64,000 nt of DNA, taken from Candidatus Mycolicibacterium alkanivorans (GTDB lineage: Bacteria > Actinomycetota > Actinomycetes > Mycobacteriales > Mycobacteriaceae). The position numbers and the translations under genes were made by a program. The stretch covers positions 2,604,001 to 2,668,000 of the forward strand of contig NZ_JAIVFL010000001.1 in the NCBI RefSeq assembly GCF_022760805.1, in the 5' to 3' direction. Each line of letters begins with the position of its first letter. Within the stretch, counting starts at the first letter, position 1. Positions 30,719 through 64,000 of this stretch are shown here, piece by piece. The notes below the pieces were generated by a model. It was not told where the DNA came from. It ran no database searches and worked only from the letters and a program-made list of their open reading frames with translations.

Positions 30719-32172
30719 CGGTGACCCTCGAAAGCGTCGGGACCGAAGGTGATGGTTGGCAGTGTGACGGTGCGCCGCTCCAGCATCACACGTTCGGTGT
30801 CCTCGGTGGCGGTGTCACCATGCTCAGCGCCGAGAACCATTAGCCCGACGATACTGGCCAGACCTTGGGTGGCGGGGTGTTCGGCCAGCACCTGAGCGGC
30901 GGTGACCGGACCGCCGACACGCCGCAATGTCGCGATGATGTTGCTGCGCAGCTCTTCGAAGTCGATATCGGATTCACGTGCCTGCTCAGCGAGTTCGGCA
31001 AAGTCAACGTCGTCGGTGTCGTGCCGCTCGAAATCGGTGGGCACCCGCCCCTCGCCGGGATTGTGCAGCTTGAGCGCGGCGATGGACCGGATCTGCATGC
31101 CGATCCGCGTCAGTTCCAAATTCATTGGCTTCTCGGGACGGTGGTGGGCACTCACTTGCACCGCCAGCGATTGGCAACGCTGGATCAACTGACGCAACCG
31201 GCGGTGTTCCTCGTACTGGCGGGACAACACAAAATGGCGCAGCGACCGGGATAAGACAAGCATGGTCTGTCGGACGGTGGCGGCTTCGTCTTCCAGTCGC
31301 GAGAGCAGCATGTTCAGGTCTGAGCGCGCCTGCGGGTCGAGGTCGGAGGCAAAGTCGCGAGACAGGATCGCCGTGATGGCTTCTTGCAGCCGGGCCGACT
31401 GTTCGGCATCGAGGATCACGTCATAGAAACCGTTCACGGAGCGGCCCGCGTCCGACTCGGCGAGCAGGTCGACCCCGCGGAACACATTGTTCAGCGTCGC
31501 GCCGCCCTCAGCTGTATCGTCGAGGATCTTGGCCCGCAGCTCCCGGCTCAGATCTTCAATGGTCGATCGCACCCGGGCGAAATCCACGGGAACTTCCTGC
31601 GCGAGGCCCAATGTCTCGGCGACCCGCTCCTTTGCGGTGTCCGGATCGAGTATCGCGAAATCGCCGCTGCGTACTTCGGCTATCCGCAGTTCGACGGCGT
31701 CGCGCTCGGCCTCCAGTAAAGACAGCCGGCTCGCCGAATTGGGATCTGAGTCACGTTGCAGCGCAATAAGGTTCGAAGCAATCGAGCCGAGTCGGGATGC
31801 CGAGGCGGTGCGCTGCGGCGATTCGATTCCGCCCACTGTGGCCGCGACATTCAGGGCAGCCGCAGACGGCGTCAGCGTTTCGCTGCCGCGCGTCTCGCCC
31901 GGGCGGCGGATCAAATAACCGGCACCGACCCAGTCAGCCACGTAGGCGGCGGCGGTGGATTCAAATTCGGCGCCGAGTTCCCTGAGCTGTTCGAGATCCT
32001 GGTCGAGCGCGGCGATTATCTCGGCCGCCGGACGGGTGCGACGCTCGGGCGGGAAGTAGTCCTGGATCACGGCGACGATCAGGCCTGCGGTTCGGGCGCG
32101 AAGCAGTGACCACTCCGGCGACTCCTTCTGGAGGCGCTGGTAGCGCAACACCGACGACGCTATCGCCACCAT
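30715..32172 (-). CDS. jetA: Wadjet JetA: MukF/kleisin-like subunit (DUF3375)
   Basis: A 485-residue DUF3375 protein, the kleisin of the system: N-terminal winged helix (SPEWSLLRARTAGLIVAVIQ), long central helices (residues 130-380), and a C-terminal winged helix (LRSNIIATLRRVGGPVTAAQ). It heads the operon jetA-jetB-jetC-jetD, the complete set for plasmid defence. I chose ATG 32172; the frame is open 80 codons further but those residues are low-complexity. No good ribosome site is visible. Confidence 0.9.
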   Translation of the reverse strand: MVAIASSVLRYQRLQKESPEWSLLRARTAGLIVAVIQDYFPPERRTRPAAEIIAALDQDLEQLRELGAEFESTAAAYVADWVGAGYLIRRPGETRGSETLTPSAAALNVAATVGGIESPQRTASASRLGSIASNLIALQRDSDPNSASRLSLLEAERDAVELRIAEVRSGDFAILDPDTAKERVAETLGLAQEVPVDFARVRSTIEDLSRELRAKILDDTAEGGATLNNVFRGVDLLAESDAGRSVNGFYDVILDAEQSARLQEAITAILSRDFASDLDPQARSDLNMLLSRLEDEAATVRQTMLVLSRSLRHFVLSRQYEEHRRLRQLIQRCQSLAVQVSAHHRPEKPMNLELTRIGMQIRSIAALKLHNPGEGRVPTDFERHDTDDVDFAELAEQARESDIDFEELRSNIIATLRRVGGPVTAAQVLAEHPATQGLASIVGLMVLGAEHGDTATEDTERVMLERRTVTLPTITFGPDAFEGHR

Positions 32173-32776
32173 GCGAGGGTAAACCCGGGCTGCGACAAGT
32201 TGGGCGTGTGAGCAAACGGTTCCCCAGTCGCGGGATCGGGTCTGGGTGGGTTCGCTTGTTGGTTTGAGGCCGCCTTTGCGGGCCTGACATGGGCCAGCAA
32301 TGCAGGACGGTCCTGGGTCATCGCGGGATGTGTCCTTTGCTTGAGTCACTCTGGGAGGTAGCTCACTCCTACGCGATCGCCCACCCCAAACCCTCAACGA
32401 CACGCCAGGCACACCCCCCGGCCGTCGACCCAGGGCCGAAACCCCACCCCAGGGGACTTACCCACGACAAAGCTCTGCTCTGGAGGTGCTGAGATAGCAC
32501 CACGACTCAGTTGAATGCCTAGACGAACAAGTTCCTACTAGGACGATGCGCCGCCGGCACACCGCAAGACACCCGCCAACTCCCCTCCGGCTGACGGATC
32601 GACTGGGGTTATGTATAGTCCGGCGGGGTTAATCAACGGTGAACGCGATGCAAAATCTGACGCGATGATGAAGACGCTGGACGAGTAGGTGCACAGATCC
32701 GGGGAGCCCGCACAGCCGGGCGGGACCATCTCCGCCGCCGTCCTCTGCCCCAATCCAGCCAGAGGACTGAGAAGGT
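32173..32776. other. 600-base gap upstream of the Wadjet operon, no gene recognised
   Basis: The gap between jetA and glgP is AT-richer than its surroundings and holds only short chance frames. The jetA promoter must lie in its left part. I saw no tRNA, repeat or integrase end that would mark an island border. Confidence 0.4.
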
Positions 32777-49622: not shown

Positions 49623-49816
49623 CCCATGCCAACCTCCCGCGCTTACTGTGTCAGAACTGTCGACCCAGTGGAGTAGTAGCCTGGTTGACAATCACCGAGA
49701 GCCGACAAAGCTGCGGGAATGCGTCCAGAAATCGAGTAGCCGATTACTCTGGTCGGCCGGATTGGTCTGCGAGACACTGAACTGCCAGGACCCAGCTGCG
49801 GGGAAGGGTGGCAGCC

Positions 49817-51274
49817 ATGGACACGCCCCGAATCGATCAGTGCGAAATCTGCATTGTCGGCGCGGGAATCGCCGGCCTGAACGCCCTTTTCGCAGCAAGT
49901 CAGTACCTTGGCCGCAACGACCGGGTGGTGCTCGTCGACCGCCGTACGCGCGTCGGTGGGATGTGGACCGACACCTACGACTACGTCCGGTTGCACCAGC
50001 CACACCAACTGTTCACCGCCGGGAACATCAAGTGGACGCTCGATAAGGAGCGCAGCTACCTGGCGACCAAGCCGGAGATTCTCGACCACCTGCAGCACTG
50101 CCTGGACGTCCTTTCCCGTCGGATGGACGTTGACGAGCGTTTTGGCTGGGACTACGTATCGCACGAGGAGACCGGCAGCCTGGTCCGGGTCACGTTGCGG
50201 GCTCCCGATGGGCTGACCCGGGTGGTGACCGCCAAGCGGCTGATCAAGGCCTTCGGATTTCAGGTTGTGCCGAATCCGCCGCTGAACTTCTCCAGCGCCC
50301 GGGTGAAATCGGCGACCCCGAACGACATGCCCCGGATCATCGACTCCGACGCCCCGGTGTGGATCATCGGCGGTGGCAAGACCGGTCTCGACACCGCCCA
50401 CACGCTCATCACGCAATGCCCCGGACGCGAAGTGAACATGCTGGTCGGCAGCGGATCCATGGCCCTGCGGCGCGATGTCCTGTTCGCCACCGGGGCGCGC
50501 CGCTGGCTCGGCGGTCTGCCGTTCGCCGCCCTGAGCACCGAGTTCGCGAAGCGATACGACGGGACCAACGAAGAGGAGGTCCGGCGCTGGTTCTACTCCG
50601 TTCTCGGGACCGGTCCAACGGGCGACAAAGGCGAGTTCGCCCATGGCTTCGGAGGTTGTACGTCCGACGCGGAGATGGCGGTCATCACCAACGGCCTGTG
50701 CCGAGCCGAAAACGAACACCTCGCCGATGTAGTCGACCGCGATGGTGCCGCCGAATTCGTGTTTCGCAGCGGCCACACCGAGCGCCTCGCTGACGGCACC
50801 TGGATCGTCAACTGCACGGGTCTATTACTCCGCAGCTCGCATCCGTTCGAGCCGTTCGTCTCGCCCTCGGGCCGGACGCTGTCGATACAGCTCCGATCGG
50901 CGGTCATCCCGCTCACGCTACAAGCGGGCTATTTCCTGACCCACCTGATGTTTACCGGCGGGCTCAACACCCTCCCTTTATACGCGGCGGATATCGAAGA
51001 GTTGTGCGCCAAGACCGGAAAGTCGCCGACGCCGGTCGTATTCCCGCTGACCGGGTACAACTTGAGCCTCGCCTTCGACCACCTTCCCAAGAAGGTGTTC
51101 GTCGAGTTTGGATCCGACCTGATGCTCTGGTATCCGCTGCCGCGGCGGCTGGCCGCCCTCATGAAATTCCGGCTCAACCACCGCCGTGGGCGCGACCGCA
51201 ACCGCAAGACCCTCGACACGATCCGCGAACGATACGGCGTACGGTGCGGGCCGCTCGACCATCTCTCCGGTTAG
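49817..51274 (+). CDS. FAD-dependent oxidoreductase
   Basis: A 485-residue flavoprotein with two dinucleotide folds: CIVGAGIAGLNALFAASQYL for FAD near the start and WIIGGGKTGLDTAHTLI for NAD(P)H in the middle, plus RTRVGGMWTDTYDYVRLHQP, which resembles flavin monooxygenases. It should oxidise an unknown small substrate in the cytoplasm. GGGAAGGG lies eight bases before the ATG at 49817; GTG 49808 is also possible. The C-terminal tail is basic (RRGRDRNRKT). Confidence 0.8.
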   Translation: MDTPRIDQCEICIVGAGIAGLNALFAASQYLGRNDRVVLVDRRTRVGGMWTDTYDYVRLHQPHQLFTAGNIKWTLDKERSYLATKPEILDHLQHCLDVLSRRMDVDERFGWDYVSHEETGSLVRVTLRAPDGLTRVVTAKRLIKAFGFQVVPNPPLNFSSARVKSATPNDMPRIIDSDAPVWIIGGGKTGLDTAHTLITQCPGREVNMLVGSGSMALRRDVLFATGARRWLGGLPFAALSTEFAKRYDGTNEEEVRRWFYSVLGTGPTGDKGEFAHGFGGCTSDAEMAVITNGLCRAENEHLADVVDRDGAAEFVFRSGHTERLADGTWIVNCTGLLLRSSHPFEPFVSPSGRTLSIQLRSAVIPLTLQAGYFLTHLMFTGGLNTLPLYAADIEELCAKTGKSPTPVVFPLTGYNLSLAFDHLPKKVFVEFGSDLMLWYPLPRRLAALMKFRLNHRRGRDRNRKTLDTIRERYGVRCGPLDHLSG

Positions 51275-51776: not shown

Positions 51777-52013
51777 GTGGACACAGTCACGGTGCGCGAA
51801 CTCCGGAACCGCGGAGGAGAAGTCCTGCGCCGTGTCGAGCACGGTGAGCGCATCGTCATCACCCGGGACGGCACGCCGGTTGCAGAGCTTCGCCCTCTAC
51901 CTCGTTCCAGCGCCGGACCAGCGGAACTGATTGGTCGCCGTAAGAATCTTCCACAGGTGGACCCGGGTGCCCTTCGACGCGACATCGACAACCTGATCGA
52001 CCCGTCGCTGTGA
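51777..52013 (+). CDS. vapB: VapB/Phd-type antitoxin
   Basis: A 78-residue antitoxin starting at GTG 51777: the Phd/YefM-like N-terminus TVTVRELRNRGGEVLRRVEH, GERIVITRDGTPVAELRPL, then a flexible toxin-binding tail. A TACACT -10-like box lies about 7 bases before the GTG, so the message may be leaderless. It overlaps vapC by four bases (GTGA). Confidence 0.85.
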   Translation: MDTVTVRELRNRGGEVLRRVEHGERIVITRDGTPVAELRPLPRSSAGPAELIGRRKNLPQVDPGALRRDIDNLIDPSL

Positions 52014-52432
52014 CGGAAGCTCAGAACCGGGGGATGCTGGATACCTCCACAGTGATCCTCCTAGGCCAGCTATCCGACCCATCCGAGCTCCCCGACGAAT
52101 CGGTGATTAGCGCGATAACGCTGGCCGAGCTGTCCGTAGGTCCGCACGTCGCGCGCGACGATGCCGAGCGCGGTGCCCGTCAACAACACCTCCAGCAGGC
52201 AGAGGCGGACTTTGACGTACTTCCATTTGATGGAGGCTGCGCCCGAGCATTTGGCAGCGTAGCGGCGGCGCTGCGCGCGTCGGGGCGCAAGCCGGCTGCG
52301 CGAGCATACGACGCACTCATCGCAGCCAGCGCAATCGCACATGCGGTACCGCTATACACATGCAATCCCGCCGACTTCGTAGGAATCCCTCGACTGGAAC
52401 TCCGATCGGTCACCCACCCGCATCACCGATAG
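52010..52432 (+). CDS. vapC: VapC PIN-domain toxin
   Basis: A 140-residue PIN-domain ribonuclease with the acidic residues in MLDTSTVI, ITLAELSVGP and AYDALIAASAIA. VapC toxins cut specific RNAs; VapB keeps them off. The GTG start overlaps the vapB stop. It is the last gene before the suspected left end of the TniABQ element. Confidence 0.88.
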   Translation: MTEAQNRGMLDTSTVILLGQLSDPSELPDESVISAITLAELSVGPHVARDDAERGARQQHLQQAEADFDVLPFDGGCARAFGSVAAALRASGRKPAARAYDALIAASAIAHAVPLYTCNPADFVGIPRLELRSVTHPHHR

Positions 52433-52468
52433 GGAGCATGACTGCGGTTGTCCGGTCTCAACTTAGTC

Positions 52469-52492
52469 GGCGGTTACCTGCTGGGAACCGCC
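52469..52492. other. Hairpin near the suspected transposon left end
   Basis: Inverted repeat ggcggtt / aaccgcc with a 10-base loop, between vapC and the DUF4276 gene. It could be a terminator for either convergent unit or part of the transposon end. No T-tract. Confidence 0.4.
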
Positions 52493-52669
52493 AACAAAAC
52501 TGCATTCGCGAGGCGCATATCTGTATCAAAATAATTGGCGGTTTCGTGTCTCACCAGGACTCGTGAAGATCGCACCGATACGAACCGCGGCTGCGTGTGT
52601 AGGTTCCACCATCGCGAACATGCATCAAATGAAGTTGCAGATGCTGCCGACCTCGCTCGCGGATCCTTG

Positions 52670-53242
52670 TTATGGGAGGCCCTGAATGCTTCGGATTGCC
52701 CGGCTAAGACTGTCGCACCTCGCTGAGGCGCCGCTGACATCCCATCTCGTGGCTGCAAACTCGTTAAGTCTGTTGACATATAGCGGGCCGGTCTCTCCCG
52801 TCGATCGGACCATATCCTGCCGGATTGTCCGAGCCCTCGAATTTCCACACAGTCGCAGAACCTCTTGCTTCGCGTGAGGCAGGCTTTCGGGGTCAGCGGG
52901 GACCTGCCCAACCTTTACGCGGAAGAAGTCAGCGAAGCCGACCCGATCAGCAAGCAGCCACGCCTCGGTCATCGAATGCGCGATGCGCAGCAAGAATCTT
53001 GGGCTCCACGCCGTAATCTCGGCGGTGAGTTCTGCGCGGAGCCGAGCGGGACACTTTCCGTCGGAATCCCTGAAGACGATCCAACTGGACTGACGCGCAG
53101 CCTGGTTGTACTTGGCGATCTTTGGGTCAAGCCGCGTCTTACCTCCGGCGACAAAGACTTTCGCGACCGTCCGCCCTGTCGAAACCACAATCGCTTTGGC
53201 CGCTTCTCGGTCAGAATCACCTTCGACCACGAGATTGATCAA
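52670..53242 (-). CDS. DUF4276 TOPRIM-like protein, partner of the AAA ATPase
   Basis: A 190-residue DUF4276-type protein. The start INLVVEGDSDREAAKAIV has the TOPRIM Glu and VFRDSDGKCPARL supplies the DxD; HSMTEAWLLADRVGFADFF is a family hallmark. Such proteins are the nuclease half of two-gene OLD-like systems. It starts with TTG overlapping the ATPase stop by four bases (TTGA) after GAAGGGAAG, so it is translated together with it. It is the last gene of the operon. Confidence 0.82.
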   Translation of the reverse strand: MINLVVEGDSDREAAKAIVVSTGRTVAKVFVAGGKTRLDPKIAKYNQAARQSSWIVFRDSDGKCPARLRAELTAEITAWSPRFLLRIAHSMTEAWLLADRVGFADFFRVKVGQVPADPESLPHAKQEVLRLCGNSRARTIRQDMVRSTGETGPLYVNRLNEFAATRWDVSGASARCDSLSRAIRSIQGLP

Positions 53243-54402
53243 CGACGCTTCCCTTCGCCCACCACGATGAGGCCAGCAAGGTCTTGCGGGGAGACGAGCC
53301 CGTCAACGATCTGCGACGTCGGCAATTCCGCCGCAAGTTCATCGGCAACCTCATCGATATCGGAGAGCAACGTCACCGTTGAGCCATCATCGGTAACCTG
53401 CAAAACTAGAACCTCTCGAGGCGAGATACCTTCGTCATCAAGCAGTTCCGGGGCGTGGGTTGATAGCAGCACTTGCATGCTGCGATCTCGCTGAGCGGTG
53501 GCGAGCACCGTCGGCAGAGTCCGGACCACGGCAGCGTTGAGCGATAGTTCTGGCTCCTCAAGAAGTAATACGCCTCCGTTGGCCGGAGCGCTCACCAGCG
53601 TCCAAAGCAAGCCGATGAGCCTTAATGTTCCATCCGAGAAGTCGGCTTCACTCTGGCGAGCCGGCGCCTCCCTCCAGTTGCGGTACCCCGCCACCAGGTG
53701 TGGGCGGCCAGCCGGATCTACCTCCAAATTCAGTGATTCGAACCCTGGTACCGCAAAACGCAAGGCATTCTGCATCCGCTTCAACCAGGCATTCCGATTC
53801 CGGGGTGTGATGGAGTTGATCTGCGCAATGAAATCGCCTCCGTGGACATCGTCTGACACGCCGCCATACCGTGCGGGATCGCGGATCAGCTGCGGGACTA
53901 GGTGGAAGTAGCGGACTTTCGCGAAATACTCAGGGATCGGGCGGAAGTTCTGATTTGCCGATATCTGTTCGAGGTGAGTCTGCGTGAGTCTCTCGGGATC
54001 GGCCACGTCGGCCGCGTCCGGGCGTTCGAGAAGGGTTTCGCCGTTGTGTTCCACACGTTCGGCACTAACAAGCGGGCGGTTACGTCCCTTTGCTTCCCCA
54101 CGCACTGACAGGTGGTAACGCCACGTATCGTCACCGTCCTGCAGCTCGACGTCGACGATGAGCCTACCCTTTTTGTTGTTACGGGCGAACAGACTGCGGA
54201 CCTTCGATAATCCGCCGCGACTGTCTATCGCTGCGGCAAGCCCACCTCCGGGACCTGCAACATCGCCCAAAAAGCGAAACAGGTCGAGCAGGTTGGATTT
54301 ACCGGCCGCATTGGGGCCGACGATGAACAGTCGATCTTCAAGGGGAAATTCCAGGGATTTGAAGTTGCGCCAGTTGCTAGCGCTAATGTGCGTGACGCGC
54401 AT
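53239..54402 (-). CDS. OLD/RecF-like AAA ATPase
   Basis: A 387-residue ABC-type ATPase: MRVTHISASNWRNFKSLEFP, Walker A GPNAAGKSNLLD at about residue 30, an insert with GGDFIAQINSITPRNRNAWL, signature region FSDGTLRLIGLLW, Walker B GVLLLEEPELSLN and the H-loop LLSTHAPELLDD. It lacks the TOPRIM half that OLD nucleases carry on the same chain; the DUF4276 gene downstream supplies it. Its ATG lies inside the end of the 100-codon gene, so expression follows hsdR. Role in phage defence is inferred from the family and the neighbours. Confidence 0.87.
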   Translation of the reverse strand: MRVTHISASNWRNFKSLEFPLEDRLFIVGPNAAGKSNLLDLFRFLGDVAGPGGGLAAAIDSRGGLSKVRSLFARNNKKGRLIVDVELQDGDDTWRYHLSVRGEAKGRNRPLVSAERVEHNGETLLERPDAADVADPERLTQTHLEQISANQNFRPIPEYFAKVRYFHLVPQLIRDPARYGGVSDDVHGGDFIAQINSITPRNRNAWLKRMQNALRFAVPGFESLNLEVDPAGRPHLVAGYRNWREAPARQSEADFSDGTLRLIGLLWTLVSAPANGGVLLLEEPELSLNAAVVRTLPTVLATAQRDRSMQVLLSTHAPELLDDEGISPREVLVLQVTDDGSTVTLLSDIDEVADELAAELPTSQIVDGLVSPQDLAGLIVVGEGKRR

Positions 54403-54685
54403 CGTCGCACCTCGCTTTCAACCAAAGTGGACAATTTGACATGGGGAGTGCCTCCATCAAGGGATTCTTCCTAAGTGTGGGGGCGAAGCCATTTGCGAGT
54501 AGTTGAACGTCACTTCCCACATTCGCGTATGTCCGCTCGGATGCCGCGGTCTCCTTGAGGAGCCCCACGTTGTCATTGTTGCCTGAGCGAGGCATGAGGA
54601 GCATCCTCCTGTCGCGCATTCTGACGCTGGTTACGGCAAAGCGATCCACTAGGACTCCCGGAATCACCTTGACCAATTCCTGCAT
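54383..54685 (-). CDS. Unknown 100-residue protein between hsdR and the AAA ATPase
   Basis: The ATG overlaps the hsdR stop by one base (TGATG) and the stop overlaps the start of the ATPase gene by 20 bases, so it is translationally linked at both ends. The protein starts MQELVKVIPGVLVDRFAVTS and has a basic, Met-rich middle (RMRDRRMLLMPRSGNNDN). No family recognised, no signal peptide. Overlap at both ends favours a real gene; it could also be a C-terminal fragment of something lost. Confidence 0.55.
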   Translation of the reverse strand: MQELVKVIPGVLVDRFAVTSVRMRDRRMLLMPRSGNNDNVGLLKETAASERTYANVGSDVQLLANGFAPTLRKNPLMEALPMSNCPLWLKARCDDARHAH

Positions 54686-57600
54686 CAGAGATGTCGACTA
54701 GCTAGATAACCATCCACATCGCCTTCAGGCCAAGCCCTAGTCGAGTTGTTCACGCGCACGAAGAAAACACTTTCGCCCTTACTGGTCTTCGCCCAGGTAC
54801 CTTCCTCGTAGCGACCAACATCAACACGGCAGATCTCCTTTCCTTGATGCACAACGATTCTGGCCCGGACAAGGGTTGTGGGGTTATGACCGAGCGCATT
54901 GATCAAGTGTGTGGTCAGCCAGTTCACGAAGCCGTCGCCGTTGGGCGGTCTCACGCAGTCATAGTCGATTTCGAGCCCGAGCACCGCACCCTGGTTGTCG
55001 ACACCGATCAGGAGGGTTCCGCCATCTGTGTTGAGGAAGGCTGCGATGGTCTTGACCACTGCGTCTTCAATCGCCTTGCTCTTTCGGCTCTCCCGAAGAT
55101 CCCACCTGGCCGTGGACTTGAACTCCACGGAGAAATCCTCATCATTCTCGATCAGTTGCTCGACAGTACGTAGCTGTGCTTCCCTCCGGCGGAGTTCGTC
55201 CGCAACGCGTGCTGCGACCTCTTCATTGGTGCGGATCAGCTCGATCACTTCATCGCTCATATTCGCCAAGTCCGGCAGCTCAAGGGTGGCCACCGACGCA
55301 CGAGACGGCACGGGCTGCACGTGTTCTCCGCGGTACACCGTGGATCCGTCATCGCCGTACGCGCTCAAGAGGTGGTCAAACACCGCCTGAACTTTCACAT
55401 TGAACAAATCAAGGGGGTATGGGTCTGCCGGGAGACTCTCGTCGAGTACTTGTCGGATAGTCGATCGCACATCAGCAGCTGTCGCAGCTTTTCGACGCCA
55501 ATCCAGAACAACCTTGTCATGGACATGCGAGAGCAGTCGCTTGGCACTGGACTTCACGACGGCGCGATCATCATCTGTGAGCACTGGGTCAGGCTTGGTG
55601 AGTAGGTCGAAAATGGCCAGCTCTTCTTCGCTCAAGTCCTCACGCGCGGCGCGTTGCTCCTCATCGGTGAGAGTGCGAGAAAGCTCGATCAATCGCCGTA
55701 GGTACTCGTCGATGTTGACACTGCCGGCGTTGTACTCATCGATTAGATCCTCGATCCGCTGAACGAGGTCGTATCGAGTCGGGTTGCGAGTCGCTGCAGA
55801 TGCTGCTCTCTGTTTTAGCAACTCAGCAAGCCGGTCAGTTTCTGCGCGTTTACGTCCAGCGAACTGGGCTGCCAGAGTATCGAAGTCAATTTTCGATAGG
55901 TCGATGAGAGGATCCGGCTCGCTGCCTTCTGCGGCAGCTCGAATGACGTACTCCTCGGCACCGACGGATCGGTCAAGCAGTGCGTCCACCGCATCCGACA
56001 CAGCGGATATATCGGCCGCCGCTGGCCGGCTTACATCGGCGATCCGCTCGGCGACAACCCGGATTGCGGCCACTGTTTGTTGGTGAGAAGCAGCTTTCGG
56101 ATCAGGGAGTAGAGCCTTGAAGAGCTTGCGTACTTGCCGAGCGCCGGCCAAAAAAGTCGTACGCACGTCCTCATCGGCTAGAAGGGCTTCAACCGCTGCG
56201 TCACGCAACGCGATGTGTTCGAATCCGGACGCATCACGCAACGCTGCAAGATCGACGCCCTGAGTGGTGCAGAAGGCAACGAGATTGTCGAGCGCGGAGG
56301 CTAGCTCGCCGACGAGTGCATCAATATCCTGGATCGGAGACCCGACATCGCTGTCGGCATTTGCAGCGCCGTAGATCGCCAACGCCTTCTCAAGATTCCG
56401 GAACACACCGGCGTAGTCCACGATCAGGCCGTTGTCCTTATCCGGGAACACCCGGTTGGCGCGCGCGATCGTCTGCATCAACGTGTGGTTGCGCATCGGC
56501 CGGTCGAGATAAACTGTCGATACGCTAGGAGCGTCAAAGCCAGTAATCCACATCGCGCAGACAAACACCAACCGCAACGGATTGTCAGCGTCCTTGAACT
56601 TCTCGGCCAGATTCTCGCGGTTCATCCGCTCGCGGTGCGGACGGATGTCCAAGCCGACGCTGTCGAGTGCCGCTATTTCATTTTGACCCTGGGAGACAAC
56701 GACGGCCATATCGGTCGTCTCCATTAGTTCGATTCGACTTGCCAGCCAGGGCCTTTCGAGCTCGGGTAGGGCGTCGTGCTGCATCCGTAGTTCGCCGAGA
56801 TGCTCGTCCCAGGCCTCACGTACATAGTCGTACATGCGGACAGCGGCGGCTTTATCCAGTCCTACGTACATCGCCTTGCCCGTGAAACCCCGTCCTACAA
56901 AATGTGTGACGAGGTCTTGCGCGATCTTGCGCAGCCGTTCGGGACGGGTCAGAAGGGTGTACTGCTTGCCGAATCGCCGAGCGAGCTGGCCCTCTGCTGC
57001 TTCGTCGAGTTCTGCCGCCTCCAAAAGGTTCTCAAGTTCTTCCTCGAAGTCCTCGTTGACGAGCTGCAGCTCTGGGATTCGGTTCTCGTAGTAGAGCGGA
57101 ACTGTCGATCCGTCTTCGATGGCGGCACGGAAGTTGTACGTACTGACGTAGTCGCCGAACTGTTGCTTGGTGAGCTCCTCGCCGACGATCAGCGGAGTTC
57201 CGGTGAAGCCCATGAAGGACGCGTTCGGCAACGCGCGTCGCATATTCAGTGCGAGAGTGTCGTATTGGCTTCGGTGCGCCTCGTCGGTGATGACAATAAC
57301 GTCAGATCGGTCCGACAGCACCGGCATCGACTTCTCGCCCTTGCCGGGTTGAAACTTGTGGATCAGCGTGAAGACGTAGCGGTGGTCGGCGGCGAGCAAC
57401 TCGCGCAGGTGGGCGATGGACGAGGCGTGAACCCTGGCCTCCGCAGGTATCGCGCCGGCGTCAGCGAACTCGCCGTGTAACTGAAGGTCAAGTTCTGTGC
57501 GGTCTGTGACCATCACGAATGTCCACGACCCCGGAATCTGGCGCAGCACCTTCTGCGTGAACCACAACATCGACAGTGACTTGCCTGAACCCTGGGTGTG

Positions 57601-58491
57601 CCAGAAGACGCCGAGTCGCTTATCGCCTGTCGCGCGCACCTGGTAGAGGTTGTCAATCGCGGCATTGACGCCGTGGTACTGATGGCTGCGGGCGACCGTC
57701 TTGATCAGGCCGCCGGGCCTTTCGATGTAGGCGACGAAGTTCTCGATTAGGTCGAGCAGTATGTGCGGAGTGCAGGTGCCTCGGATCGCGGTCTCTAACG
57801 CGATAACGCCTCGGTTGCCCTGGGCGTCGATAACAGTCCAGTCACTAAAGAACTCCCACGATGCGTAGGTAGCCCCAACCTTCGCGTCTCGTCCGTTGGA
57901 GAGAACGATAAGTCCGTTCGGCACGAAAAGCCGCGGGATCGTGTCGCGGTAGTCGGTGAGGTTCTCGTCGTACGCCGCCTTCACAGGGCGGTTGGGGTCT
58001 TTGAACTCGAACAGCACTAATGGGATGCCGTTTACGAACAGCACCGTATCGGTCCGTCGACGGTACAGGTCACCGGCGAACCACATTTGCGGGACAGCGA
58101 CCCACTCGTTCTTCGTCGAGTCACGAAAGTCGATGTACTGCACCGTCGCGTACTGACGCTCGCCGTGGTCGTCCGTCCACTCGGCGCGGTAACCATCGCG
58201 GACCAGCTTGTAGGTTTCGCGATTCGCGCGCACCTGGTCCATCAGTGACCGGTCTCGGACGAGGGCAGCTAGTGCTTCCTCGCGGATCGTGTCGGGGATG
58301 AGCGGATTCAGATCTCGGAGGGCATCGCGGACCCGGTGAATGAGCACGACATCGTGCATCGAGTCACGGCCCAAAGTTCCTGCAGGACCGAACGTTTCCT
58401 GAAATCCGTTGATGACTGTCCAGCCGAGCTGCTCAAGCAAGCCCAGGCTAGGTTGCTCCACCAGACCGCTCTCGGTGTATCTCCCACCCAT
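54685..58491 (-). CDS. hsdR: Type I restriction subunit HsdR with a C-terminal AlbA_2 (Schlafen) domain
   Basis: A 1268-residue HsdR. The N-terminal nuclease has the PD-(D/E)xK pieces TDTVLFVNGIPLVLFEFKD; the motor has Walker A HTQGSGKSLSML, DEAH box VITDEAHRSQYD, GFTGTPL, and QTIARANRVFP. After a long helical region a separate domain begins at about residue 1123: VEFKSTARWDLRESRKSK, AAFLNTDGGTLLIGVDNQG and VFFVRVNNSTRAW. This is the AlbA_2/Schlafen fold, not a normal part of HsdR. It cuts unmodified DNA with HsdM and HsdS; the extra domain may bind nucleic acid. The ATG directly follows the hsdS stop (TAAATG). Confidence 0.93.
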   Translation of the reverse strand: MGGRYTESGLVEQPSLGLLEQLGWTVINGFQETFGPAGTLGRDSMHDVVLIHRVRDALRDLNPLIPDTIREEALAALVRDRSLMDQVRANRETYKLVRDGYRAEWTDDHGERQYATVQYIDFRDSTKNEWVAVPQMWFAGDLYRRRTDTVLFVNGIPLVLFEFKDPNRPVKAAYDENLTDYRDTIPRLFVPNGLIVLSNGRDAKVGATYASWEFFSDWTVIDAQGNRGVIALETAIRGTCTPHILLDLIENFVAYIERPGGLIKTVARSHQYHGVNAAIDNLYQVRATGDKRLGVFWHTQGSGKSLSMLWFTQKVLRQIPGSWTFVMVTDRTELDLQLHGEFADAGAIPAEARVHASSIAHLRELLAADHRYVFTLIHKFQPGKGEKSMPVLSDRSDVIVITDEAHRSQYDTLALNMRRALPNASFMGFTGTPLIVGEELTKQQFGDYVSTYNFRAAIEDGSTVPLYYENRIPELQLVNEDFEEELENLLEAAELDEAAEGQLARRFGKQYTLLTRPERLRKIAQDLVTHFVGRGFTGKAMYVGLDKAAAVRMYDYVREAWDEHLGELRMQHDALPELERPWLASRIELMETTDMAVVVSQGQNEIAALDSVGLDIRPHRERMNRENLAEKFKDADNPLRLVFVCAMWITGFDAPSVSTVYLDRPMRNHTLMQTIARANRVFPDKDNGLIVDYAGVFRNLEKALAIYGAANADSDVGSPIQDIDALVGELASALDNLVAFCTTQGVDLAALRDASGFEHIALRDAAVEALLADEDVRTTFLAGARQVRKLFKALLPDPKAASHQQTVAAIRVVAERIADVSRPAAADISAVSDAVDALLDRSVGAEEYVIRAAAEGSEPDPLIDLSKIDFDTLAAQFAGRKRAETDRLAELLKQRAASAATRNPTRYDLVQRIEDLIDEYNAGSVNIDEYLRRLIELSRTLTDEEQRAAREDLSEEELAIFDLLTKPDPVLTDDDRAVVKSSAKRLLSHVHDKVVLDWRRKAATAADVRSTIRQVLDESLPADPYPLDLFNVKVQAVFDHLLSAYGDDGSTVYRGEHVQPVPSRASVATLELPDLANMSDEVIELIRTNEEVAARVADELRRREAQLRTVEQLIENDEDFSVEFKSTARWDLRESRKSKAIEDAVVKTIAAFLNTDGGTLLIGVDNQGAVLGLEIDYDCVRPPNGDGFVNWLTTHLINALGHNPTTLVRARIVVHQGKEICRVDVGRYEEGTWAKTSKGESVFFVRVNNSTRAWPEGDVDGYLASRHL
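54688..55134 (-). other. AlbA_2/Schlafen domain fused to the end of HsdR
   Basis: This stretch encodes about the last 149 residues of HsdR. The signature is EFKSTARWDLR, then AFLNTDGGTLLIGVDNQGAV and VDVGRYEEGTWAK with a final VRVNNSTRAWP. In stand-alone AlbA_2 proteins the EFK...NxxGGxLLIGV core binds nucleic acid. The fusion is in frame with no sign of a frameshift. Confidence 0.8.
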
Positions 58492-59742
58492 TTACGCCAC
58501 CGCACTACTGACCAGCGTGTCCAGGTCCAAGCCCGACACATCGATCTGACCCGCTACGAGTTTCGGTAGCAATAAATCACGCATGCTGTAGAGCTGTTCC
58601 GACTGAAGTTGGAGTGTTCGACACGCTTTGAACATCGGTTGCACTACTGCTTCGAACTTTTCGCTGATCTCCTTTGGCGGCTCGGCGAGAAGAAAGGAAC
58701 CAAAGCACTCGTTGCGGACTCGCTGTCGGCCACTCGCACCACTCATACTGGCGATCGCGTGAGCTCGAAAGCCATCCGATCGCGCAATGCAGTAGGTATG
58801 TGTTGGGCCGATCGTGCGACCGCGGAGAACTACGAACTCGGTGGATCCGAGTCCGACCTCTCCCTCTCCGAGACACTGCACGAATCCGGTCTTGCCGTTT
58901 TCGAGGCATGGCGTGATCCTTGCAAATAACGTGTCACCGTTCTCGTACTTCGATCCACTACTACCGATCCTCATCTCGCTCGGCGAGCAGGACATCGTGC
59001 GTTCGTCCAGATCTGCCATTGCAATGAACGGATGCGCCACAGTCCGGTCCACGCGAACGCGCGGGTTGATCGTGATCGCATCGGACGCCCTCGCGATGGG
59101 CCAACCATCGGGTACAAGGCCGATGGGCGAACTGACGAACGCCTGGTTCTCATACCCGGGGAACCGAAAATGCACGAACCATTCTCGATAGAGTGTGCGC
59201 GCCATCTCCTCAAGTATCTCGAGCCGCTCCCTGTTGTTTTCGATCAGGCCATCGAGTCCGTCAAGGATTCGTCCCACGATCTCCTGTAGCGGACGGGAAA
59301 GTAGCGGCACCTCTACCGCTCTTAGCTCAGGCTGCCGGATACCGCTCACGGTGGTTCCGCTGGCACGCCGTTGAAGACTTGCTCGGGCCTGCGGCGATCT
59401 CAGATAGTGGAACAAGAATTGCGGGTCAACGCTCGCCGGGTCGGGCCTCAACAGAATCACCCTCTGCGCCAGTGCGATTCGCGCGTCGGTCCCAACCTGC
59501 GCAACTTCACCTAACGGAGCTTCTGTCGTGATTAGTATGTCACCTGTTCTTGGAAGCCCACGGCGCATCCAACTGTCGTAGATTTCCTCCGCGATCCATT
59601 CACGGGGCTCGGGCAAAATGAATCCGCCTTTAATCACCTTCGCCGTTATCAGCGGGACGCCCGATGGCGACTTCGGCGGGGTCTTACCTCGGTAATCGAT
59701 GAGGGCCTCAATCAGGTCCCCGATAGCGTGAATCTCGCTCAC
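58492..59742 (-). CDS. hsdS: Type I specificity subunit HsdS
   Basis: A 416-residue HsdS with two target-recognition domains (about residues 1-150 and 210-370), each ending in a helical spacer: LQEIVGRILDGLDGLIENNR and the closing helix before LLPKLVAGQIDVSGLD. It sets the DNA sequence recognised by the complex; the site cannot be read from the protein. GTG start overlaps the hsdM stop by four bases (GTGA). Confidence 0.9.
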   Translation of the reverse strand: MSEIHAIGDLIEALIDYRGKTPPKSPSGVPLITAKVIKGGFILPEPREWIAEEIYDSWMRRGLPRTGDILITTEAPLGEVAQVGTDARIALAQRVILLRPDPASVDPQFLFHYLRSPQARASLQRRASGTTVSGIRQPELRAVEVPLLSRPLQEIVGRILDGLDGLIENNRERLEILEEMARTLYREWFVHFRFPGYENQAFVSSPIGLVPDGWPIARASDAITINPRVRVDRTVAHPFIAMADLDERTMSCSPSEMRIGSSGSKYENGDTLFARITPCLENGKTGFVQCLGEGEVGLGSTEFVVLRGRTIGPTHTYCIARSDGFRAHAIASMSGASGRQRVRNECFGSFLLAEPPKEISEKFEAVVQPMFKACRTLQLQSEQLYSMRDLLLPKLVAGQIDVSGLDLDTLVSSAVA

Positions 59743-61289
59743 GCGTCCAGCACTCCCTGCACCGCTGTGTCGACTTCGGCTCGCAGAATGACGGCTTCGT
59801 CACTGAGCCGTGAGAACTCCTCGTACAAACCAGCCAATCTCTCACGGAAGTCTTCGCCGTCATCCTTGATTTCGGCCGTTCCCGTGTAACGGCCCGGGTT
59901 GAGACTCCAGCCCTGCGCTTCGATCTCAGTGCGGGTGGCGACCCTACACAATCCAGGAACATCAACGTACTTCTCACCCGGGAAATGTTCATGGACGAGC
60001 GGCTCGCTGCCATCCGTCGCCTCAATGGTTTCGCCACGATATAGGCGCACGATGTTAGCGAGGAACTCGATGTGTTCGGGTAAGAAGTCCCTGTGTGCCC
60101 GATCAATCTGCCGATACAAGTGTCGCGCATCGATAAACAGGACCGTATCTTCGCGCCCCGTACTCCGCTTGCCGCGGTCAAGGAACCACAGAGTCACCGG
60201 CAGAGTCACGGTGTAGAAGAAGTTCGTTCCAATTGCGACCATGACGTCGACAACTCCGGACTCGATTAGCTTCTGCCGGATGTTCCGTTCGGAGTGCGTG
60301 GCGTCACCCGCCGAGTTCGCCATTACGAATCCAGCGCGCCCATTCTCGCTCAAGGCCGAGTAGAAGAGCTGAATCCACAAGTAGTTTGCGTTGTCGGGCT
60401 TGGGAATCCCGAACGGGAATCGCTTGTCGCCGGCTAGCTTATTCTTGTCGACCTTGTCCACGTTGAATGGCGGGTTGGCCATAACGAAGTCAAATGCTCC
60501 CGCCGAATCGTGCGGATCCTCGTAGTAGCTGTTACCGAGACGAATGTCGCCCGACAACCCATGGAGTGCGAGGTTCATCTTCGCGAGGGGGACCGTTCCC
60601 TCCTTCTGCTCGACGCCGAACACCGAGAGCTCTCGGGCGGCCGACTTGTGATGTCGCTCAACGAACTTTGCGGACTGCACGAACATGCCACCCGACCCGC
60701 ATGCGGGATCGAGCACCCGTCCGTGGAACGGCTCGATGATCTCCACGATCAGCCGGACGATCGAGTAGGGCGTGAAGAACTCACCACCGAGGCGGCCCTC
60801 GCTGGCGGCGAAGTTGGACAGAAAGTCCTCATAGATCAGGCCGAACGCATCACCGGACAGCTGGCGCGGCAGCGGAGCGAACAGCCGCAACTGCTCGGCG
60901 AGCGTGGACTTCTCCATGCGTTGGTAACCCCGCGGCAGCACGTCGCGCAGCTCTGGGTTGGCGTCCTCAATCGCCTTCATCGCCTCGTCGATCGCCTTGC
61001 CGAGGTTTTGGCCCTCGGGAAGGTCGACGAGTTGTGAGAGGCGCGCCGCGTCCGGTACGAACAGCGCCGACTTGGCGCGGTAGTCATCCGGCGTCACCGG
61101 CCGACGCGCCGTAGCCTTGGCCTCCAGCTCGGGGCGGACCTGCTCGAACCGGAACTCCGCGTAGGCCAGGAAGATCAGGCCGAGCGCCGGACCGCGATAC
61201 TCGGCGGGAGAAAGCGTGGAGTTCGCACGCAACTCGTCGGCGGCAGCCCAAAGCGTCCGGCGGACCTGCGCAAGATCATCGGTCTTCAA
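59739..61289 (-). CDS. hsdM: Type I DNA methyltransferase subunit HsdM
   Basis: A 516-residue N6-adenine methyltransferase: N-terminal helical domain (LWAAADELRANSTLSPAEYR), SAM-binding VLDPACGSGGMFVQSAKF, and the catalytic FVMANPPFNVD. It methylates host sites to protect them and is needed for cleavage by HsdR. The start is an unusual TTG at 61289 preceded by GGAAGG; no ATG fits. It lies 38 bases downstream of tniQ. Confidence 0.93.
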   Translation of the reverse strand: MKTDDLAQVRRTLWAAADELRANSTLSPAEYRGPALGLIFLAYAEFRFEQVRPELEAKATARRPVTPDDYRAKSALFVPDAARLSQLVDLPEGQNLGKAIDEAMKAIEDANPELRDVLPRGYQRMEKSTLAEQLRLFAPLPRQLSGDAFGLIYEDFLSNFAASEGRLGGEFFTPYSIVRLIVEIIEPFHGRVLDPACGSGGMFVQSAKFVERHHKSAARELSVFGVEQKEGTVPLAKMNLALHGLSGDIRLGNSYYEDPHDSAGAFDFVMANPPFNVDKVDKNKLAGDKRFPFGIPKPDNANYLWIQLFYSALSENGRAGFVMANSAGDATHSERNIRQKLIESGVVDVMVAIGTNFFYTVTLPVTLWFLDRGKRSTGREDTVLFIDARHLYRQIDRAHRDFLPEHIEFLANIVRLYRGETIEATDGSEPLVHEHFPGEKYVDVPGLCRVATRTEIEAQGWSLNPGRYTGTAEIKDDGEDFRERLAGLYEEFSRLSDEAVILRAEVDTAVQGVLDA

Positions 61290-61327
61290 ACTGTCCCGCC
61301 TTCCTCGCCCTGCAGAGGGCTCTCATT

Positions 61328-62158
61328 TCAAGGTCCATCGATGAACCGCAGAATGTTGTAGTACGTGTCTCGCATCGGAACCCCGTAGATCCGTGCGTCC
61401 CGGCGACGCGCGGTCACATGTGTGATCGCAGTCCATACCCGGTTGGTCGCTCGCCACGGGTCCGAGTCGTTGCGAGCGGGGATGATCTTCTCTACTTCCC
61501 TTGCGACCAACGCACTGCGCTGAGTTGCGTCGGTGTCAGGATCGGTCGCTGCGCGTAGGAATCCGGGCAGGGCGAGTAGTCGAGCGATTTTGACTTGCTC
61601 TGGATACATCAGCGCGTCGACGTCATCGATACCGAATTCGTCTCTACGACGGGCGATCTCACTGGCCCCTACGATCCCAGGACTAGCGCTCTCTCGGCCA
61701 ACCCGCATGAGCAGGGAATCATGCAAGACGTCGCGAGCGGCGAGATGGCGCCGAAAGTGTCGCTCAGCGGCGAGAGCAGGGTAGTAGCCATGCAGGTCGA
61801 TCTGAGGAGATCCGAGCCACCTCCTGTGCCGTACGCACACCAGCCCAATACGGGTGAGTTTTCCTCGGGCGGGCTCGCCTTTGGTACAGCGGAGGCACAG
61901 AGCCCGCTCCGTCACCTCCTGGTCGAGGACGTACTCGGGGGCAGTGAAGGCCTCGGCTCGCAGATCACCGAGATCCCGCCATGCCTGGAGGCGATCGGGA
62001 TTGCGCCGGCTCTTCGATTTGATGACACCGCGCTCGCGCAAAGCGCGGTCGACATCTGAGGGCAAGCAGAAGTTCCGGCCAGCGTGCCGCCGCATATACG
62101 AGTCCAGGTTCTCACCGTGATAAAGACGTGTGCGAACTGGAAGGGGTGGGATCCTCAC
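61328..62158 (-). CDS. tniQ: TniQ-family transposon targeting protein
   Basis: A 276-residue TniQ: PPLPVRTRLYHGENLDSYMR opening, and a zinc site with CLRCTKGEPARGK and CVRHRRWLG. TniQ links the DNA target to the TniB/TnsC ATPase in Tn7- and Tn5053-type elements. The C-terminal part is helical. GTG start overlaps tniB by four bases (GTGA). Confidence 0.85.
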   Translation of the reverse strand: MRIPPLPVRTRLYHGENLDSYMRRHAGRNFCLPSDVDRALRERGVIKSKSRRNPDRLQAWRDLGDLRAEAFTAPEYVLDQEVTERALCLRCTKGEPARGKLTRIGLVCVRHRRWLGSPQIDLHGYYPALAAERHFRRHLAARDVLHDSLLMRVGRESASPGIVGASEIARRRDEFGIDDVDALMYPEQVKIARLLALPGFLRAATDPDTDATQRSALVAREVEKIIPARNDSDPWRATNRVWTAITHVTARRRDARIYGVPMRDTYYNILRFIDGP

Positions 62159-63192
62159 TCAGCCCTCCTCAACGGCATCGGGGTAGCCATGTCGCCTGCC
62201 ACCGTCCGCGCTGCAGCCTCCTCAGACGCGAAATCAGTCGAAGTCATGTCGAGAAGCTTCCTATTGATCAACTCGTCGCCGCTGAGGATCGCCGCAATCG
62301 CCGCGTCGTTGAGGAGGGCGCGGAGCGAACCAATTGAACCTCCGGTGCGGTCATATAGGTAGGTCGCCTCTGATTCGAGGGATCCAGCGGCATGGCGACC
62401 TAGCGGTAGGAGGGCTTCGATGCCGAGGATGAGTTCGGCCCACCTGTCCCGTTGCGCCTTGGTCCCGTACTCATACTTCCGCATCTGGTGGACAGCCATT
62501 CGACCCTTGAGCTGACGTCCCATGTGACCGGCGAACAGATCGGCCTGCAGTAGGTCGATGCCGGCGTAGATGAATGTTGCGTCGAGTCTTTCCGAGAACA
62601 CCTTCAGTGCTGATGCGGCTTCGCTGCCTGCCTGGTGATTTGTCTTGAGGTTGTGCACCTCGTCGACCAGGACTAGCGAAACCGAGAGGCTCCGCATGAC
62701 GCCCACGATCTGCTCGGTCAGGTCCTGAGCGGTTGACTTGTTCGGAACCAAGAGGCCGAGGAAGTTGGCGAATGCCAGCATCATCATCTTTGGGGTAGTC
62801 CCCGGCGGGACGACCGTATAGACCACCGGGGCGAACCCGTCGTCGTAACGGTTGATTTTGGCTCGCATCATCCGGTCATGGCGGCGGCCGATCAGCAGTG
62901 CGGCGGTGGACTTGCCACGGCCCGCGGACCCAGAGATCGCAAGGCCGCGGCGTGCGGTGGCAGACTCAGCAGAGTTCCTCGCCATTAAGACGCGGGTCTG
63001 ATGTGTCAACGCCTCGGTGTCTGGCGTCTCCAACACGACGTCTGCCCCAAGCCAGGCAAATCGCTGCTGGTCGTATTCCTCTTTCCCGGCGGGGGAGAGG
63101 GTCTTGATCTGCTTCAAGTTGAGGTGCTCAGGCTCGACGTTGCGACGGTTGACGAACTCCCGCCACGCGGCTAGTGAATCGGGTACGGCCAC
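62155..63192 (-). CDS. tniB: TniB transposition ATPase (TnsC-like AAA)
   Basis: A 345-residue AAA ATPase with Walker A ISGSAGRGKSTAALLIG, Walker B LVLVDEVHNLK and the sensor block IYAGIDLLQADLF, as in TniB/TnsC. It forms the target-selecting filament on DNA that activates TniA. The GTG start is two bases after tniA. Confidence 0.9.
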   Translation of the reverse strand: MAVPDSLAAWREFVNRRNVEPEHLNLKQIKTLSPAGKEEYDQQRFAWLGADVVLETPDTEALTHQTRVLMARNSAESATARRGLAISGSAGRGKSTAALLIGRRHDRMMRAKINRYDDGFAPVVYTVVPPGTTPKMMMLAFANFLGLLVPNKSTAQDLTEQIVGVMRSLSVSLVLVDEVHNLKTNHQAGSEAASALKVFSERLDATFIYAGIDLLQADLFAGHMGRQLKGRMAVHQMRKYEYGTKAQRDRWAELILGIEALLPLGRHAAGSLESEATYLYDRTGGSIGSLRALLNDAAIAAILSGDELINRKLLDMTSTDFASEEAAARTVAGDMATPMPLRRAE

Positions 63193-63194
63193 GG

Positions 63195-64000
63195 CTACTC
63201 CTCGCCCGCGTCATCGATGCGCCGTGCCGGCCGACGCGTTGGGGCTGCAGCGGTCTCGTTGATTGCGGAAACAGTCGCCAAGTGTTCGGTCCCCACATCT
63301 GAACGATTTTTCTCGGTGACGGGGGAGAGCGGTGGCACCACGGGTTTGTTCACGCTGTCGCGTTTCGCGGCTCGCTGTTCCTTGACTGTGCGAGCACCAC
63401 CGGTTTGGATGCGGCTGATCTCGGCAAGGACATCAACTCCGGTGGGCGTGTCGCCGCGGCGCTCTATTGCCTGGCGGGCGGCGCGCAGAACGTCGAGGGA
63501 GAACGGCGCCAGCGCCTGTTTGGCGAGGCTCCACTCGGCCTCAATCCATTCGCCCCGGAAATGGTCACGGAGGAAGATCGACTGCAGCCGATAGGGGTCG
63601 TATCGGACTTCCCATCTGTCGTTCGCTGGGAGCGGCAAACCACTCTTGACGCCACGGTAGGGGTGCAGCGCTGGACTGTCGTAGTGCAAGCTCTCGAAAT
63701 TGACGCCGTAGCCCTGGATTGTCCGGTACGCCACCGGAAGTAAGCCAATGTAGTCGTCGCGATCCAGCGCGACATTGACCGTTGGTGCAACCGAGGCCAG
63801 CGCCGCGAAGGCCTCGTTGGGGGTGAGATCCTTCTTCGGCATCGCGGGGTGGCGGAGTCCTGGATGCCGCTTGTTCTGCCAGACAGCGACAATCCAAAGA
63901 TCCAGCAGGTTCTGCACCTCGGCCAACGTCCAAATAGCCTCGGTCTGTGGGGACGCTCCACGATTGACCACGTTTGGTCCGACGTATCCGGCGAGGTACT
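63195..64000 (-). CDS. tniA: TniA transposase, C-terminal part (runs off the right edge)
   Basis: At least 268 codons, open to the window edge. The part seen is the end of the retroviral-type integrase domain and the Mu-B-like C-terminal domain: YVGPNVVNRGASPQTE, WQNKRHPGLRHPAMPKKDLT, NEAFAALAS, then LHPYRGVKSGLPLPANDRWE. The catalytic Asp-Asp-Glu should lie just outside. The C-terminal tail is flexible and charged and would contact TniB. Confidence 0.88.
   Translation of the reverse strand, partial: YLAGYVGPNVVNRGASPQTEAIWTLAEVQNLLDLWIVAVWQNKRHPGLRHPAMPKKDLTPNEAFAALASVAPTVNVALDRDDYIGLLPVAYRTIQGYGVNFESLHYDSPALHPYRGVKSGLPLPANDRWEVRYDPYRLQSIFLRDHFRGEWIEAEWSLAKQALAPFSLDVLRAARQAIERRGDTPTGVDVLAEISRIQTGGARTVKEQRAAKRDSVNKPVVPPLSPVTEKNRSDVGTEHLATVSAINETAAAPTRRPARRIDDAGEE

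Follow-up and report, generated by a model that had tools for sequence, protein, structure and literature searches.

How does a transposon loaded with antiviral genes choose its landing place on a bacterial chromosome? The question is raised by a 64,000-nucleotide stretch of the genome of Candidatus Mycolicibacterium alkanivorans (C1:2604001-2668000 in a genome of 4.05 Mb; the window, whose coordinates are used throughout and continued past its end at 64000), in which transposition genes are followed on the same strand by type I restriction-modification (RM) and other candidate defence genes. The element spans 52449-66135, 13,687 bp, and extends beyond the window. It is a complete Tn7-like transposon with TnsA and TnsB, TnsC and one short TniQ, and comparison with its relatives makes us confident that such transposons insert beside dif, the site of the XerC/XerD chromosome-dimer-resolution machinery, at a near-fixed distance and with an exchangeable cargo. 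Genomes and loci are cited by our own numbers (G and L).

Ends of the element and their distance from dif

The element is bounded by inverted ends TGTCC...GGACA. The left end (52449..52578, plus strand; TGTCCGGTCTCAACTTAGTCGGCGG...) has two mismatches to the family end motif, and its first 130 bp hold YGGCGG twice (at 20 and 88) and one inverted copy (at 40); the right end (66006-66135, minus strand, beyond the window) was placed by alignment with relatives and by the end motif. When the region upstream of tnsA was aligned across relatives, a dif-like block was followed by an unconserved spacer and then by a block TGTCCKGTCTC...TGGCGG, which occurs inverted at 52449 and also, at 2-6 mismatches, at the opposite ends of the elements in G114, G088 and G002 and of both copies in G278. 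The TGT...ACA termini, the repeated TnsB-type sites and their asymmetry are those of Tn7-like ends. In G170 the copy is a contig beginning and finishing exactly at the two ends of the element. The ends were recognisable only after relatives had been added: a whole-end alignment of the two ends of our own copy gave similarity no better than that of random window pieces, and TCAACTTA, our first guess for the terminus, proved wrong once relatives were aligned. The original prediction started the element at 52449, the very base at which the left inverted end begins, and ended it at 64000, short of the actual right end at 66135. A search past the window for matching ends, which it had proposed, found that right end, and the two ends match and enclose the tns genes and the entire cargo. 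Up to the window's end the element has a GC content of 59.6%, versus 67.6% in window positions 1-49000.

Outside the right end lies CCGATAAGCCACATTATGTCA, which we take to fit the actinobacterial dif consensus. Its core (66186-66206, minus strand, beyond the window) is 71 bp from the right end and is the sole perfect match in the genome, in which one further place matches with 3 mismatches. The site is 2.03 Mb from dnaA, 50% round the chromosome and opposite dnaA. As expected of a chromosomal dif, it lies near the replication terminus and has XerC- and XerD-type arms about a 6-bp spacer, in the published order XerC arm, spacer, XerD arm (PMC10132070; this and the other papers are cited from the passages available to us). 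Across the genus, dif was found with at most 1 mismatch in 278 of 297 genomes, a few of them with two or three sites, and a backwards control pattern had zero matches in the same 297 genomes.

Distances were counted between the initial bases of CCGATAA and of the right end, in a clade defined by TnsB identity of about 50% or more, which gave 22 readable loci including our own. A near-fixed distance and orientation beside dif or a dif-like site was seen at 21 of these 22. Eighteen lie on the XerD side, 58-78 bp from dif: our own copy at 71 bp, G114 at 71, G088 at 72, G002 at 69, the two G278 copies at 71 and 74, G156 at 63, G060 at 72 and the broken copy in G083 at 78, followed by M. bacteremicum (65), M. 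agri (70), Mycobacterium sp. UM_WGJ (74), a Mycobacterium metagenome-assembled genome (MAG; 68), Nesterenkonia (64), a Kocuria MAG (62), Propioniciclava soli (58), Kocuria carniphila (59) and G420, of another family (63). Three copies of Arthrobacter type lie on the XerC side, 37-40 bases separating them from that arm, in Arthrobacter sp. MA-N2, on the Arthrobacter J3.49 plasmid pJ349-116, which is typed as conjugative and carries the element at its own dif-like site, and in P. polychromogenes, where the dif-like site is degenerate (4 mismatches). Imperfect dif-like sites are in use, among them those of L041 and L074, and the hosts span three orders, Mycobacteriales, Micrococcales and Propionibacteriales. 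Four loci cut off at the end motif (G170/L068, L075, L076, L081) were unreadable, as was L085, a decayed locus without the front of tnsA, and none of the five is counted; L067, L073 and L083 are further labels for the loci of G114, G156 and G083.

Such a pattern could also be left by a single ancestral insertion beside dif that was inherited vertically, and mycobacteria are indeed most of the hosts found. This is contradicted by the presence of the element in Micrococcales and Propionibacteriales and by the differing duplications, spacers and cargo, the empty sites and the two copies in one genome, so that we give it hardly any credence. Five copies (loci L036, L037, L039, L040 and L041) have perfect 5-bp target duplications, GCAGT in G114, CCGGT in G088, ACCGG in G002, and ATAAT and GCGGG in the two copies of G278. 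Over the first 7,095 and the last 723 bases the latter, 7,813 and 7,814 bp long, do not differ at all; the DNA around them is unrelated, and each copy has a separate duplication and a dif or dif-like site to itself. So near-identical a pair implies recent movement. Empty sites, which the original prediction had suggested looking for, exist in several mycobacteria. Just outside the left end of our copy stands a Phd/VapC-type toxin-antitoxin pair (51783..52432, plus strand; PF02604, PF01850), and in six of nine genomes (L090, L092-L095, L097) this pair directly adjoins dif; L095 has an element as well, across dif from the pair, and in the remaining three (L091, L096 and L098) the pair and dif are separated by other DNA. 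In G002 this pair and dif stand on opposite sides of the element, which has a perfect duplication; the joined flanks, compared by eye, read like the empty sites. A toxin-antitoxin pair adjoining dif recalls the toxin-antitoxin dif modules described on Acinetobacter plasmids (PMC8754128).

The terminus might instead be merely a tolerant region where elements pile up with no specific targeting, and near dif one also finds Tsy-like recombinase trios and Tn7-like elements of other lineages. We consider this very improbable, as the offset is constant to about 20 bp with a single orientation in each subclade, the plasmid copy sits at a plasmid dif-like site, and the second G278 copy is at a dif-like site only 8% of the chromosome from dnaA. 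The genus sample was graded by identity to the TnsB fragment over 119 listed places with E 7.8e-28 or better, weaker matches and the second piece of the broken G083 copy being left out. At 66% identity or more, all nine placeable copies (one of the ten places was not placeable) are within 3 kb of dif on its 3' side. At 38-49%, 21 of 26 placeable copies (of 42) lie no more than 20 kb away, without exception on the 5' side, and at 31-37% the same holds for nine of 29 (of 67), eight on the 5' side and one on the 3' side. A class-wide draw of 394 genomes added one clade member at E 1e-100 or better, G420 (50%), with a 1-mismatch dif at the same place. At the other 22 places (43% or less) no dif within 4 mismatches was found in the roughly 1.5 kb or less examined upstream of tnsB; one of them has a 3-mismatch site downstream of tnsB.

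The spacing is not unique to the clade. The probable end of the divergent element in G087 (TnsB 31%; L054) is 76 bp away from dif, on the 3' side as in the clade, and a remnant in G172 (a TnsA remnant; L060), which has the end sequence TGTCGGATGACAACC in common with G087, ends 62 bp from dif on that same side; both ends were assigned from this shared sequence, and the distances indicate that a divergent lineage has the dif spacing too. The 38-49% TnsB clade was considered as dif hunters and rejected: its ends, found at five loci, lie 41-94 bp from a palindrome, CGTCAC(A/T)GTGACG, and their distance to dif varies. In most of the mycobacterial loci read, this palindrome (window coordinates 66471-66483; L003 2471-2483) is found some 190-350 bp to the 5' side of dif. 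Allowing one mismatch, 38 of 45 loci scanned (two genomes counted twice) have it within 1,200 bp of dif, and the four non-mycobacterial loci lack it; possibly it is a terminus-protein site and another landing mark. On the opposite side of dif from our element, starting 440 bp from it, L003 2646-5625 (window 66646-69625) encodes a tyrosine recombinase, a helix-turn-helix (HTH) protein and a cysteine-rich/tyrosine-recombinase protein, a trio that resembles a Tsy element (YRec-HTH-TnsF); G175 and G034 have similar trios at position +275 relative to dif.

Several observations weigh against insertion beside dif as a general rule, or against our own copy as an example of it. One of the 22 loci is a plain miss, the pHiyo8-1 copy (L082) being 3.9 kb from the nearest dif-like site; the spacing varies by 20 bp; and the ends in Propioniciclava, Kocuria carniphila and G420 were assigned from TGTC alone, which makes three of the 18 XerD-side distances tentative. 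The transposition machinery shows a departure too, since 18 of 19 aligned TnsA sequences have R at the position where a catalytic K is usual. Our own copy has no target duplication (flanks GAAAC versus ACCGC), so that the 5-base duplication expected by the original prediction is perfect in five sibling copies and absent here, and no second left end flanked by the lost partner turned up when one was sought. By eye, the sequence to the left (ACCGC) can be aligned with the point of insertion in G002, and the 50 bp on the dif side are unlike the native spacer. Probably the dif-side flank has been exchanged since insertion, or our copy is a hybrid of two elements.

Transposition genes and exchangeable cargo

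The minus strand reads, from 66049 down to 52670, TnsA, TnsB, TnsC, TniQ, hsdM, hsdS, hsdR, a 100-codon open reading frame (ORF), an AAA_21 ATPase and DUF4276. The order and common strand had been predicted correctly, and profile matches confirm the TniB, HsdM, HsdS, HsdR, AAA and DUF4276 identities. The Tn5053-type label has to be given up. Tn5053 elements are not known to have TnsA and carry their own resolvase and res site. Here TnsA (65243-66049, minus strand, beyond the window; NF033179, an NCBI family of actinobacterial TnsA-like proteins, 1.5e-71), with a conserved E..PD..DV(R/K) in alignment, precedes TniA, which makes the element Tn7-like, and no resolvase is among the ten proteins scanned against Pfam and NCBIfam, a set that left out other small ORFs. 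The TnsB/TniA transposase (63195-65309, of which 63195..64000 are inside the window; minus strand, 704 aa) is 66-89% identical to five relatives, and we take its conserved residues to be of the DDE type. The TnsC/TniB AAA+ regulator (62155..63192, minus strand; PF05621 5.5e-14) is followed by the short TniQ (61328..62158, minus strand; 276 aa), the candidate target selector. This protein itself has no Pfam TniQ match, and its profile gave a chance match only (E 0.54) against the PDB; its identity is backed by synteny, by a conserved Cys/His set (C88, C91, C108 and H111, invariant in alignment A2) and by matches to Pfam TniQ PF06527 in six of eight aligned family members (best E 2e-4, searched to E 10). 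The Tn7-like set of TnsA, TnsB, TnsC and TniQ is present together. A second, distant tniA/tniB pair (35% and 27% identical) lies in the same genome at G000:C1:685514-688695, not near dif. In G088 (L037) the element has stop codons in tnsB and probably also in tnsA, was left out of alignment A1, and is probably no longer mobile.

The cargo begins 38 bp after TniQ. The genes hsdM (59739..61289; PF02384 5.3e-80, PF12161 2.8e-16), hsdS (58492..59742; PF01420 2.5e-7, PADLOC Specificity_I 1.9e-75) and hsdR (54685..58491; TIGR00348 2e-140), all on the minus strand, by their family domains encode the methyltransferase, specificity subunit and restriction subunit of a type I RM system, the HsdR C-terminus carrying a Schlafen AlbA_2 domain (SLFN_AlbA_2, PF04326 5.6e-13). 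Beyond them, also on the minus strand, an AAA_21/OLD-like ATPase (53239..54402; PF13304 2.3e-31, PADLOC HEC-01A 5.2e-165), similar over its first 47 aa to PDB entries for GajA and an OLD nuclease (E 4e-4 to 5e-4), adjoins a DUF4276 gene (52670..53242; PF14103 7.7e-4, below the Pfam cut-off; PADLOC HEC-01B 4.2e-79). The DUF4276 protein contains the motifs VEGDSD and DSD, which we read as TOPRIM-like, and its profile found nothing usable in the PDB. Both proteins match the PADLOC candidate system HEC-01, here beside a type I RM operon inside a transposon. We found no origin paper for HEC-01 in the open-access literature, nor an open-access paper linking DUF4276, an ATPase and defense; PMC8565338, in the part available to us, names Hma, not HEC.

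Start/stop overlaps had been thought to link every cargo gene. This stands for hsdM/hsdS (-4), hsdS/hsdR (0) and the ATPase/DUF4276 pair (-4), and fails between hsdR and the ATPase, where the link needs the 100-codon ORF (54383..54685, minus strand); with that ORF discounted a gap of 282 bp is left. The ORF has no match in Pfam, NCBIfam, PADLOC (E up to 0.01), plasmid records or the loci of nine relatives, and is probably not a gene, or else a lineage-specific one. The original prediction saw in the cargo one co-evolved six-gene defence system, for which the shared direction of the genes and the several overlaps speak. We think this unlikely, given the unsupported ORF at that joint and the two halves found apart: G114 has hsdM and hsdR 88% and 93% identical to ours (hsdS only 32%) with a Ppl-like ATPase in place of HEC-01, and G072 has the HEC-01 pair alone, with no hsd or tns match within the 19.5 kb examined. 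The cargo therefore consists of two separable systems, which would act as two independent antiviral systems. Our genome and G072 are the only two of 297 in the genus with the AAA protein (E 1e-20 or better).

Related elements carry other genes between the same kind of ends. G170 has a DrmD-like helicase, a type III methylase and nuclease and a Ppl-like ATPase, and G002 a gene set similar to it in length and sequence (by reading, unscanned); G088 has Lamassu LmuA, LmuB and LmuC with a fourth ORF that has no PADLOC match; and the G278 copies have a monooxygenase and a hydrolase (by reading, with no family scan). Such varied end-bounded blocks indicate that defence cargo is common and is swapped in blocks. 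Defence genes had been regarded as exceptional cargo, a view that does not hold, RM being the commonest defence cargo of Tn7-like transposons (Benler et al. 2021, PMC8649781). Outside the ends, a flavin monooxygenase (49808-51274) beyond the left end has 66% DNA identity over about 600 bp with the G278 cargo monooxygenase and may have been left behind by an earlier element, and a complete type I Wadjet system JetA-JetB-JetC-JetD (25692-32412, minus strand; PADLOC) lies about 20 kb from the transposon.

Recognition of dif and relation to known systems

On the reading that we favour, the transposon inserts with its tnsA end leading, a nearly constant distance away from dif, and leaves dif intact. 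In the mechanism that we propose, TniQ as selector would recognise dif and, once there, recruit TnsC and TnsAB about one footprint away. It is most likely, though by a modest measure of confidence, that TniQ recognises dif as a complex bound by XerC and XerD, presumably the obvious occupants of the site: the slack in spacing, the use of either arm and the imperfect sites suggest a protein-DNA complex over a strict sequence match. We put at about even the further proposal that the host XerC/XerD-dif complex is a trans-acting target selector, the short TniQ reading the chromosome-dimer-resolution machinery. According to Minakhina et al. in 1999, Tn5053 elements reportedly sense res sites occupied by resolvases, and this serves as the natural precedent for such a cue. 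The dif-to-end distance resembles the roughly 50-60 bp reported for CRISPR-associated transposons (CASTs; Benler et al., PMC8649781). TniQ might also bind the dif sequence itself, with no role for the Xer proteins, as TnsD of Tn7 contacts its target sequence directly (PMC2918618), and the use of imperfect dif-like sites (L041, L074) can be counted for it. However, the TniQ here is only 276 aa, and Faure et al. considered some TniQs too short for target selection and 369 aa already "short" (PMC10293859); different subclades on either side of dif fit a two-armed complex at least as well. Direct binding is a possibility to keep in mind, at less than even chances.

Compared with known systems, the element is closest to Tn7 and the Tn7-like transposons, sharing TnsA-TnsB, TnsC, TniQ, TGT/ACA ends and the 5-bp duplication (seen in the siblings) as well as insertion at a conserved site with distance and orientation nearly fixed, with defence cargo common (PMC8649781). 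The target is a gene or tRNA end there and dif here, and unlike the TnsABC with TniQ/TnsD of Tn7-like elements we recognised in this element no selector gene besides its one short TniQ. The Tn5053/Tn402 "res site hunters" are alike in having a single TniQ and aiming at a site-specific recombination site (PMC11406308); Tn5053, however, hunts resolvase resolution sites, whereas here the site is dif and TnsA is present. The "dif site hunters" of the IS1202 family (ISAjo2) share a TnsB-like transposase, a 5-bp duplication and a dif or plasmid dif target, but are insertion sequences of 1.5 kb with a transposase alone that insert 5 bp from the XerC side (PMC10132070); ours is a four-gene transposon with cargo, 13.7 kb long, about 34-54 bp beyond the XerD arm. 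In Tn6022 with TnsF and in Tsy elements, relatives of tyrosine recombinases serve targeting (PMC10293859), yet these target comM through an element-encoded selector, and no gene resembling that for TnsF was recognised within our element.

Neither dif hunting nor defence cargo is new in itself, the former having been published for IS1202 insertion sequences (PMC10132070) and the latter for Tn7-like elements (PMC8649781). Among the matches listed in an open-access search, which most subscription papers lie outside, we found no report of dif-targeting Tn7-like transposons, and papers using both "Tn7-like" and "dif site" made no link between the two in the passages found. In the available text, "dif site" is absent from PMC10293859 and PMC8649781, and "dif" as a word from PMC11406308. 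The near-fixed offset points to a landing rule that we did not find described for this transposon family.

Faure et al. (2023) described many loci with a partnerless TniQ too short for selection and suggested that selectors are borrowed in trans (PMC10293859, from the passages available). The clade presented here is a defined and testable case of short-TniQ targeting, with dif as the target and XerCD as the candidate partner, and if the proposal is true it would answer how short, partnerless TniQs pick their targets. A single pathway would then serve the transposon in two ways, giving it a safe place in the chromosome at dif and transport on conjugative plasmids by way of the dif-like sites that these carry. 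The clade could also yield a tool for site-specific insertion without a guide RNA. For actinobacterial defence cargo dif is a predictable landing pad, an address from which such islands can be found by measuring.

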